Origin: Clostridia bacterium
Lineage (GTDB): Bacteria; Bacillota; Clostridia; Lachnospirales; Lachnospiraceae
DNA: 64,000 nucleotides
Direction of reading: 5' to 3'
NCBI GenBank assembly: GCA_910574835.1
Contig: CAJTDE010000002.1
Span: forward strand, 62,001-126,000
A program made the translations under genes and the position numbers. Positions 16,778 to 19,033 of this stretch are shown in pieces (position 1 is the stretch's first letter; every line of letters begins with the position of its first letter). The notes under the pieces were generated by a model, which worked only from the letters and a program-made list of their open reading frames with translations, was not told the origin of the DNA and made no database searches.

Positions 16778-16902
16778 AATGCTTCACCCATTCCCGTTCA
16801 CCTGACGCCCTGCTTACAAGCCTTGGCGTATCGGTGAGATTACAAACAGGGCCGATGCACCAAAACAATGCAACAGCCCTTCCTTTATAACCGTCTATGT
16901 TC

Positions 16903-17649
16903 TTACATGATACATGATTTTAAAATATAATCCATACCTTCATCCATCTGAAAAACTTCTGCATACTTAGATAAAATATTAATAATAATTTTCAAATTTT
17001 CCCTGTCTTCAAAGTCACTGTCATAAATAAACAATACTTTTTTTATCCCTGCCAGCTCACTTGCGGCAAAAGACCATTGCCTGGCATTACTTATAAGCCT
17101 TCTTAAGTTCTTGCCTCTAAATGAAAAATGCTTAATACATAGGTTTTCTAACTGATAGTCAAATGGAATTTCATCATTAAATTCTCCGAAGATTCTACCA
17201 TTTGAATATTTCAAATTGTTTGTTTCCAGTACACGTTTAATTAACTTTTTCTCTTCATTACTATTCAAACGCTGAGATTTTGCCAAATCATATTTCAGGT
17301 AAACTTTTGTAAGAGCGTCTACATAATCTTCGTTTTCCTCAACATTCAACTTCTTAATGGTAGAAAATTTAAACTCATTCGCAAATACTTGAATATATGA
17401 TTGTAAATCAAATGAATCCTTATAGTTTAAAATAGAAGTCTCAACATCCTCTTTAATCCCAACAAGATATGCTCTTACAAAATTAACATCCGCTTCATCA
17501 TCAAATACCTGAAATCTTTTGAAATTGGAAATATATCTAAAATCACGTTGCCCTGTAGTAATATTATGAAACAAAACTCCAAGACACAAGCATTCATCTG
17601 ATATGGGCGAATGATAATAATTCAAAGCTGAATATTCAATATGACTCAT
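16903..17649 (-). CDS. DUF3037 family protein, partner of the HipA-like kinase
   Basis: 248 residues with an opening typical of DUF3037 (short strands, then EYSALNYY and a GVLF segment). It begins 15 bases after the HipA-like kinase gene, the pairing this family is known for, and a good AGGAGG-type site precedes the ATG. The gene is strongly AT-rich with Lys, Asn and Ile-rich composition, unlike the GC-richer genes on both sides, which suggests recent transfer. No membrane segment or known catalytic motif is visible. Its role (substrate, adaptor or antitoxin of the kinase) is not established. Confidence 0.75.
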   Translation of the reverse strand: MSHIEYSALNYYHSPISDECLCLGVLFHNITTGQRDFRYISNFKRFQVFDDEADVNFVRAYLVGIKEDVETSILNYKDSFDLQSYIQVFANEFKFSTIKKLNVEENEDYVDALTKVYLKYDLAKSQRLNSNEEKKLIKRVLETNNLKYSNGRIFGEFNDEIPFDYQLENLCIKHFSFRGKNLRRLISNARQWSFAASELAGIKKVLFIYDSDFEDRENLKIIINILSKYAEVFQMDEGMDYILKSCIM

Positions 17650-17664
17650 GATATACCTCCTTTT

Positions 17665-18420
17665 TTATTTTATGTAATTCAGAATCGTAGATATTATAGT
17701 ATCAAAGTGATTTATCCTATACATTAAATATTCAACCAATGCATTTTCATTCTCCTGCATAGGCCGCCACTCCTGCGGACATTCTTCAATTAATTTCTTT
17801 ATTACATTACTATTAATTTTATTTTTAAATTCTAAACCCGCTTGCTCCAAAGCTTCTTTTGTAATAGAAATATTTCTATAAAACATACTATATAGTCTTT
17901 TGTTATATTCAAGAACCTCCGTACTAAACAAGTCACACTCTCTCATTGCAGTTTTTAAACAACCGGAATCCCAGATTGCACCATTAATAAACACATGGGT
18001 ATGGTCAATTACCTTTAGCGACACATCATCTTTATAAAATCGAACCAGTAAATTGCCCTCATTTCTGTCTCTATTGAATATAATATGATCAAACAAAAGA
18101 ACCTTTATGAAAACTTCTTTGTTCTTCATCATACTAATAATAGATGATAATAGCTTTGTCGTTTTCGGCATAAAAGTCGAGTAAAACGCATATCCATAAT
18201 TATTACTTGAAGCAATAGCGGAATCAAATACTTCCGTATTCTCATCCATTACGCATATTCCGCAATATGGCATCGGAATATCTATAAGTATTGCCAATCT
18301 ATAACACACATACTCATTAAAAAGCACCAGGTTTCCCTCTGGTCCATGAGATAATTTCACCACTATTTGAGTACCATCATCCAAAATTGCATATTTGGGC
18401 TCCGTAATTCCAATATTCAT
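17665..18420 (-). CDS. HipA-like Ser/Thr kinase (HipA_2 type)
   Basis: 251 residues with kinase motifs in order: VVK with K22, an E36 that could be its salt-bridge partner, the catalytic loop FNRDRNEGN with D118 and N123, and a DFG-equivalent D139-H-T. The full HipA N-terminal subdomain and the usual HipB helix-turn-helix partner are absent. It is AT-rich like the DUF3037 gene that follows. The frame is open for about 20 more codons upstream of the ATG at 18420, and stronger ribosome binding sequences lie there (GGGGGTG, AAGGA), but only non-AUG codons are in frame, so the true N-terminus is uncertain. The target is unknown. Confidence 0.78.
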   Translation of the reverse strand: MNIGITEPKYAILDDGTQIVVKLSHGPEGNLVLFNEYVCYRLAILIDIPMPYCGICVMDENTEVFDSAIASSNNYGYAFYSTFMPKTTKLLSSIISMMKNKEVFIKVLLFDHIIFNRDRNEGNLLVRFYKDDVSLKVIDHTHVFINGAIWDSGCLKTAMRECDLFSTEVLEYNKRLYSMFYRNISITKEALEQAGLEFKNKINSNVIKKLIEECPQEWRPMQENENALVEYLMYRINHFDTIISTILNYIK

Positions 18421-18609
18421 ATTATAATGGATTTGAGCAATATGCTTTTCCTTGATAGTATCACCCCCGCGCTCTCTTAATTTGTATTTTTATTATACAC
18501 CACAATAATCCAAAAAGCGATAACAATCTGCACGGTTAAAAATAAAACATTCCACAATAAAAATTCCTGACAGCACTATTTGCTCATTAAAAATATAAAT
18601 CCAAATACT

Positions 18610-18653
18610 ATTTTAAATGGCAAATAGCCCGCAGACTATTTGCCATTTAAAAT
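18610..18653. terminator. Perfect 18-bp hairpin terminator after the PqqD-like gene
   Basis: ATTTTAAATGGCAAATAG (18610-18627) and its exact complement (18636-18653) enclose an eight-base loop 20 bases after the PqqD-like stop. The A/T-rich ends make it usable in both directions. It also marks the edge of the AT-rich HipA-like island. Confidence 0.85.
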
Positions 18654-18673
18654 AACCCGTATAAAATATTTCA

Positions 18674-19033
18674 TCAATCAGCCTCAAGCGGCACACTGTA
18701 CCCGATAAAATGATTCTGATACAAGATCTGAAAATACTTCGTAAGCCGCGGCAGAAGAGGCTCCGCCTTCTCCCCATACCGTTCCTTCACCAGAAAGCTG
18801 ATCTCATAGATGGTCCGCTTCCCGTCCATCTGCTGCCACACGAAGCTTCCGTACTCATCCAGGCTGATATGGCTCACCTTCGGCCGCTTAAATACTTTCT
18901 GGGCCAGCCTGTTATAGAAGCCTCTGTTCTCCACATGGATCACCACCAGCTTCTTTTCATTCAGCTCCCAGCTATGTTCCGGCGCACACACCGGAACATA
19001 GTCGAGGTAATTTTTTTTCTGCTTCCCGCTCAT
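18674..19033 (-). CDS. Stand-alone PqqD-like protein
   Basis: 119 residues. The central part (ENRGFYNRLAQKVF, then a SxDEYGSFVW segment and DGKRTIYEISFLVKERYGE) matches the PqqD/RRE winged-helix fold that binds leader peptides in RiPP pathways. Its ATG follows the OPT transporter stop directly (TAA-ATG), so the two are translationally coupled. No radical SAM enzyme, precursor peptide or protease is nearby, so RiPP biosynthesis is not supported. A binding or regulatory role for the peptide transporter is one possibility. It ends at a strong hairpin terminator. Confidence 0.75.
   Translation of the reverse strand: MSGKQKKNYLDYVPVCAPEHSWELNEKKLVVIHVENRGFYNRLAQKVFKRPKVSHISLDEYGSFVWQQMDGKRTIYEISFLVKERYGEKAEPLLPRLTKYFQILYQNHFIGYSVPLEAD

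Follow-up and report, generated by a model that had tools for sequence, protein, structure and literature searches.

A divergent HipA-like kinase and DUF3037 gene pair in a Lachnospiraceae genome, and the probable near-cognate start codon of its kinase gene

On the minus strand of a 64-kb stretch of a Lachnospiraceae genome (Clostridia bacterium, GenBank assembly GCA_910574835.1, contig CAJTDE010000002.1, positions 62,001 to 126,000; the whole of this stretch is called the window here, and its first letter is position 1) lie two adjacent genes, one for a HipA_2-family kinase and one for a DUF3037-type partner. As read from an AUC start codon, the pair occupies 16903-18456, with the kinase gene upstream (17665..18456, 263 codons plus stop) and the DUF3037-type gene next (16903..17649, 248 amino acids, with an N-terminal DUF3037-like part and a C-terminal half with a predicted PD-(D/E)XK-like fold). 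In its ATG-started form the kinase open reading frame (ORF) covers 17665-18420, and a gap of 15 bases separates it from the partner ORF at 16903-17649. The G+C content (GC) of the partner and kinase ORFs is 29.9% and 31.9%, against 49-54% in five flanking genes, and their GC at third codon positions (GC3) is 26% and 31%, against 59-69% in the same five; the six lowest-GC 1.5-kb segments of the whole 64 kb all fall at the pair (31-33%, compared with a mean of 50.1% and a standard deviation of 3.6). The original prediction, made from the sequence alone, had described two tightly spaced and clearly AT-rich genes with no HipB partner, and both observations hold: no helix-turn-helix gene adjoins the pair, whose neighbours are PGA_cap (CapA-like), PqqD and OPT genes.

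The kinase matches the HipA_2 profile from profile position 9 when begun at the ATG (E 3.5e-16) and from position 1 when extended to the AUC codon (E 3.5e-17), the score rising from 59.6 to 62.9 bits, and it matches the PADLOC model PDC-M66A at E 3.5e-8. Among 14 aligned kinases, 13 match PDC-M66A at E<=0.01 and all 14 match a PDC-M03A model. The residues picked out earlier in the shorter form (K22, D118, N123 and D139-H-T) are present and correspond to K34, D130, N135 and D151-H-T of the 263-residue form; K34, E48, D130, N135 and D151 do not vary across the 14 aligned relatives, and after D151 the histidine position holds H in 12 and Y in 2 and the threonine position T in 10 and S in 4. Judged from this alignment, the active site is complete. 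An AlphaFold2 model of the kinase (predicted local distance difference test 91.8, predicted template modelling score 0.90) places the first beta strand at residues 4-12 and resembles HipT, HipA, CtkA and PI4K-II; a sequence search of solved structures gave a weak PI4K-II match (E 0.0067). The 263-residue protein corresponds to the core kinase, with HipA chains aligning from about their residue 125 onward.

The assignment of the partner to DUF3037 stands for the group of aligned partners, 11 of 14 of which match the Pfam family at E<=1 (best E 1.5e-10), and through the PADLOC model PDC-M66B, which matches the window protein at E 1.7e-4 and 8 of the 14; the window protein alone, however, falls under the 22.6-bit Pfam cut-off (17.5 bits, E 0.0049). 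In the C-terminal half with the predicted fold (window 16903-17271; fold matches cover about residues 127-248), D164 and K173 are invariant, and 13 of 14 partners lack the acidic residue two positions ahead of the lysine. By these predictions this half looks to be of PD-(D/E)XK type, usually without one of the acidic residues; a sequence search of solved structures with the partner returned no match at E<=1.

On the strength of these profile matches, the pair belongs, as a divergent member, to a kind already in the literature, PDC-M66 or HipAD (DS-6). According to the passages of PMC12548924 that concern it, a pair beside Retron-Sda1 was identified as PDC-M66, deletion of its kinase abolished defence against Bas51, deletion of the DUF3037 gene was toxic and the retron reverse transcriptase was dispensable. 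In the portions of PMC13092281 that treat DS-6, which is renamed HipAD there with citation of Brenes and Laub 2025, defence was lost when a predicted key catalytic residue of DS-6A/HipAD was mutated, and AlphaFold3 predicted a kinase-partner complex. The window pair is like PDC-M66 in its kinase and DUF3037 partner, in the PADLOC matches of both proteins and in having no HipB, but no retron reverse transcriptase was noticed beside it, and a kinase start at AUC, AUU or AUA (AUH) belongs to the window clade. It is like HipAD, as those portions describe it, in combining a HipA-family kinase with a DUF3037 partner unlike HipB; DS-6B is described there with DUF1829 as well, whereas none of 14 window-type partners matched Pfam DUF1829 at E<=1, a divergent equivalent being possible. 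From HipBST (HipT; Legionella, E. coli) it differs in having DUF3037 as the antitoxin-like partner: Pfam scans of the partner and neighbours found no HipS or HipB family, and only a DUF3037-type gene lies downstream of the kinase. From HipBA it differs in having no helix-turn-helix neighbour and a kinase without the N-terminal HipA subdomain. Because PDC-M66 / HipAD pairs have a DUF3037 partner instead, the missing HipB is to be expected. The system is already known, and what appears to be new, and testable, is the conserved near-cognate AUH start of the toxin gene.

The kinase very probably starts at the AUC codon at 18456 (ATC, 18454..18456, minus strand) and not at the ATG at 18420, because homology, codon-position bias, a strong Shine-Dalgarno sequence and the first beta strand all place the start there. 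Protein homology extends 12 codons upstream of ATG 18420. A Shine-Dalgarno-like GGGGGTGAT (18460..18468, minus strand), its core 7 nucleotides (nt) ahead of the ATC codon, forms a predicted anti-Shine-Dalgarno duplex of -16.1 kcal/mol, which is equalled by 0.03% of 3000 random window positions; a control on 44 long window frames, of which the kinase frame exceeds six in the strength of its best canonical site, is only mildly informative. A candidate -10 box, TATAAT, lies 35 nt upstream of the ATC codon (18492..18497, minus strand) and is absent from the promoter-scan output. Rfam gave no known RNA element in the leader at the gathering score, and leader structure is not unusual (z 0.72).

The first homologous kinase codon is AUH in all seven distinct clade members found: ATC in the window (L002 being the same), L005, L006 and L078, ATT in L003 and L077, and ATA in L004. 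Among more distant kinases the homologous start is TTG in six (L107, L088, L090, L113, L132, L099) and ATG in five (L091, L093, L094, L096, L100); the depositors used these same starts for L099 (TTG) and L100 (ATG), and for SAP-26 (L101) the depositors' kinase start is further upstream. In these counts near-identical copies (L087, L089, L092; L101, L103; L133-L136) were counted once with their representative, and L095, L097, L098 and L102 were excluded, as they were from the tree, for being too divergent. On a tree of 16 kinases, from which the decayed L005 and L006 were left out, AUH needs one change, and four of the five AUH rows form a clade with support of 100/99. When the 12 extra codons of the window, L003, L005 and L006 are compared in pairs, 21 of the 24 mismatches fall at third positions and not one at a second position; upstream of the AUH codon, a one-base length difference in the L006 leader puts the frame out of register. 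In the window, L003, L004 and L078, the stretch from the last in-frame stop to the AUH codon contains no ATG, GTG or TTG; the L006 frame is open through its TATAAT. That box stands 31-38 nt upstream of the AUH codon in five of seven members (window, L003, L006, L077, L004), and none was found in L005 and L078. Shine-Dalgarno duplexes at the AUH codon reach -16.1 kcal/mol in L003, -18.4 in L077 and -11.3 in L004. The partner starts at ATG in all six clade members scored (window, L003, L005, L077, L004, L078), with duplexes of -9.1 to -13.6 kcal/mol, the last being that of the window's AAGGAGG (17656..17662, minus strand), and the L006 remnant has a Met codon at the partner start position too.

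Several observations weigh against this placement of the start. In L077 there is an ATG in frame shortly past the TATAAT, and the Shine-Dalgarno sequence contains a GTG; in L005 a GTG stands in frame four codons ahead of the ATC. In L005, L006 and L078 the duplexes before the AUH codon do not stand out (-9.5 to -10.3 kcal/mol, matched by 5-8% of random positions), and the third-position bias weakens when the more distant L077 is added, with 55 mismatches at third, 22 at first and 12 at second positions. AUH as a single group is supported only at 70/49, L078 being unplaced, and the window, L003 and L005 hold a short out-of-frame ORF (GTG or ATG start) whose TGA overlaps the codon-13 ATG. That ATG, 18420 in the window, was considered as the kinase start and set aside as less likely: it has no Shine-Dalgarno sequence (duplex +1.3 kcal/mol), is absent in two clade members and would give a protein without the first beta strand of the AlphaFold2 model.

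AUU and AUA starts have been described for infC and pcnB of E. coli and for infC, ccpN and cvfC1 of S. aureus (PMC13009471, PMC1780047); the sections of PMC13009471 on S. aureus put AUU/AUA starts with an extended Shine-Dalgarno sequence at about 10% of AUG expression in poor medium, with one gene reaching as much as 30% in rich medium. As these accounts present them, such genes have a near-cognate AUH start that limits translation, in S. aureus with an extended Shine-Dalgarno sequence, as the window kinase probably does, but they are not toxins of toxin-antitoxin pairs, and the window start is deduced by comparison only. By title and abstract opening, none of the open-licence literature matches listed (15 of 64 in one search) describes near-cognate starts in toxin-antitoxin genes. 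The gene for initiation factor 3 (IF3), infC, of the window's own genome (L111, G000:C24) likewise appears to start at ATT, behind AAGGAGG; AUH starts of infC are known, AUU in E. coli and AUA in S. aureus.

We consider it probable that the locus came by horizontal transfer and encodes a pair of the HipAD / PDC-M66 type, in which the HipA-like kinase would be a growth-arresting effector, bound and restrained by the DUF3037 protein encoded just downstream. The near-cognate AUC/AUU/AUA start would throttle translation of the toxin gene, which is placed first and in the window has a strong Shine-Dalgarno sequence; with the toxin gene first and so throttled and the antitoxin gene AUG-started, antitoxin would be made in excess over the kinase, and infection would upset the balance between the two, upon which the kinase would stop growth (abortive infection). 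Toxin-first operons need antitoxin kept in excess, to which a conserved near-cognate toxin start would be a simple answer, and the occurrence of AUH, never AUG, in seven members suggests selection for weak initiation. The idea of a DUF3037-restrained kinase in a transferred toxin-antitoxin or defence module, already put forward in the original prediction, is the best reading of the pair in view of the PDC-M66 match and the published homologues, although the kind had been published and the function in this organism would follow from homology only. Initiation at AUC/AUU/AUA would hinge on IF3 stringency, as it does for infC, and the AUH start might also act as a sensor, such that IF3 shortage or displacement by a phage, or relaxed start selection, would raise the kinase over its AUG-started antitoxin and fire the toxin; we give this addition little credence, but if true it would make the locus a toxin-antitoxin pair gated by translation-initiation fidelity. 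Because the kinase start would be a near-cognate AUC, gene callers limited to ATG/GTG/TTG would cut off the first beta strand of the kinase.

The short out-of-frame ORF could be given a role if the same HipAD-type pair made its kinase from ATG 18420, coupled to a leader ORF of 15 codons that begins at GTG 18464 and overlaps that ATG with its stop. The ORF is GTG-started in the window and L003 and ATG-started in L005, and five of the seven members have the codon-13 ATG (window, L003, L005, L006, L077), yet we regard this arrangement as unlikely: a leader ORF start was found in only three of the seven members (none in L006, L077, L004 and L078), and L004 and L078 are the two that have no codon-13 ATG. 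The duplex at that ATG is +0.8 to +1.3 kcal/mol in the five members having it, the 36 nt ahead of it evolve as kinase-frame codons in the four close members, and the lost beta strand counts here as well. In another reading the pair would be a harmless regulatory kinase with its adaptor, or an inactive relic of transfer, with no part in defence or toxin-antitoxin activity in this lineage. In its favour, two of the seven AUH members have decayed kinases, L005 (9965-11082), in which an in-frame internal deletion removed the kinase core and the partner was kept, and L006 (9965-10500), a remnant of both genes; the pair sits among housekeeping-type genes, and none of 9 neighbouring window proteins scanned matched PADLOC at E<=1e-5.

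The loss of the kinase with retention of the partner in L005 is as expected for a toxin, but L004 (10761-11400) has an open kinase frame and a frameshifted partner, the opposite of toxin-antitoxin expectation unless this is a sequencing or assembly error, and at L102 no partner was seen next to the kinase. Against a harmless or inactive pair stand the conserved catalytic residues, the open state of both frames in the window and of the kinase also in the near-identical sister, the defence against phage reported for homologues in the cited parts of PMC12548924 and PMC13092281, and a patchy distribution in which the three genomes with the kinase are also those with the partner; we hold such a pair to be rather improbable. 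An exchange of roles, in which the partner would be the effector, as an active nuclease, and would be regulated by the kinase, seems very unlikely, given the acidic residue missing from nearly all partners and the toxicity of DUF3037 deletion and loss of defence on kinase deletion reported, in the passages of PMC12548924 already mentioned, for the homologous pair.

Of 16 genomes examined in the genus, two have the kinase, that of the window and G305, whose copy is not independent because it is 99.2% identical to the window over 4 kb; among 299 family genomes the kinase was found in three and the partner in these same three. A profile search found the kinase in 5 of 397 genomes of the family (two weak), 6 of 398 of the phylum and 20 of 391 of the class, the last being strong only in the window's own genome and G1194; the samples are not disjoint, and the window's genome is part of every one. 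Besides the window genome, six congeners, among them G305 with the pair, carry a close PqqD-family neighbour gene (90-100% identity), and the PqqD-CapA junction (window 16844-18699; L066-L072) is variable in the genus, lacking the pair in some genomes and in others holding it, an AAA-ATPase/PDDEXK_9 gene or about 25 kb of other genes. In G303 (L066) and G304 (L067) the PqqD and CapA-like genes are only about 0.4 and 0.2 kb apart, without the pair, G303 having a short ORF of its own there; in G300 (L068) the AAA-ATPase/PDDEXK_9 gene lies at this place, in G302 the two genes are about 25 kb apart with other genes between, and in G309 no close CapA-like gene was seen beside the PqqD-family gene. 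From the junctions of congeners, the variable cargo between the PqqD-family gene and the CapA-like (PGA_cap) gene extends approximately over 16891..18673. The patchy presence and the junctions without it make it unlikely that the pair belongs to the fixed core genes of the lineage. Its transfer-like character, as first proposed, is favoured by these same features and by AT-richness. No integrase was found among seven flanking proteins tested and no transfer RNA gene in the 64-kb window.

Among the relatives, the L003 kinase is 87% identical to that of the window, and a Cas9-Cas1-Cas2-Csn2 CRISPR locus (cas9-cas1-cas2-csn2; L003:6353-12264) lies 2.7 kb downstream of its copy of the pair; the L004 copy is near vsr and a cytosine methylase gene. 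Relatives of 24-29% identity lie between the endolysin and integrase genes of Staphylococcus phages 52A, SAP-26 and MetB16. Viral scans with the single relatives L004 and L077 as query found nothing, and a plasmid scan gave one weak match, on a Niallia megaplasmid, whose ATG-started frame was left out of the start-codon count. Of 18 loci, 15 have a partner-like ORF after the kinase; the other three are L004, with its frameshifted partner, the L006 remnant and L102. In another family of the phylum, L080 and L081 (G449, G413) show, on reading by eye, a HipA_2-like kinase following a PHP-like gene, with no DUF3037-like ORF noticed among the listed ORFs of more than 200 codons. In the window itself, the interval from the PqqD gene to the pair contains a terminator-like 20-pair inverted repeat with a T-containing tail (18608..18655, minus strand).
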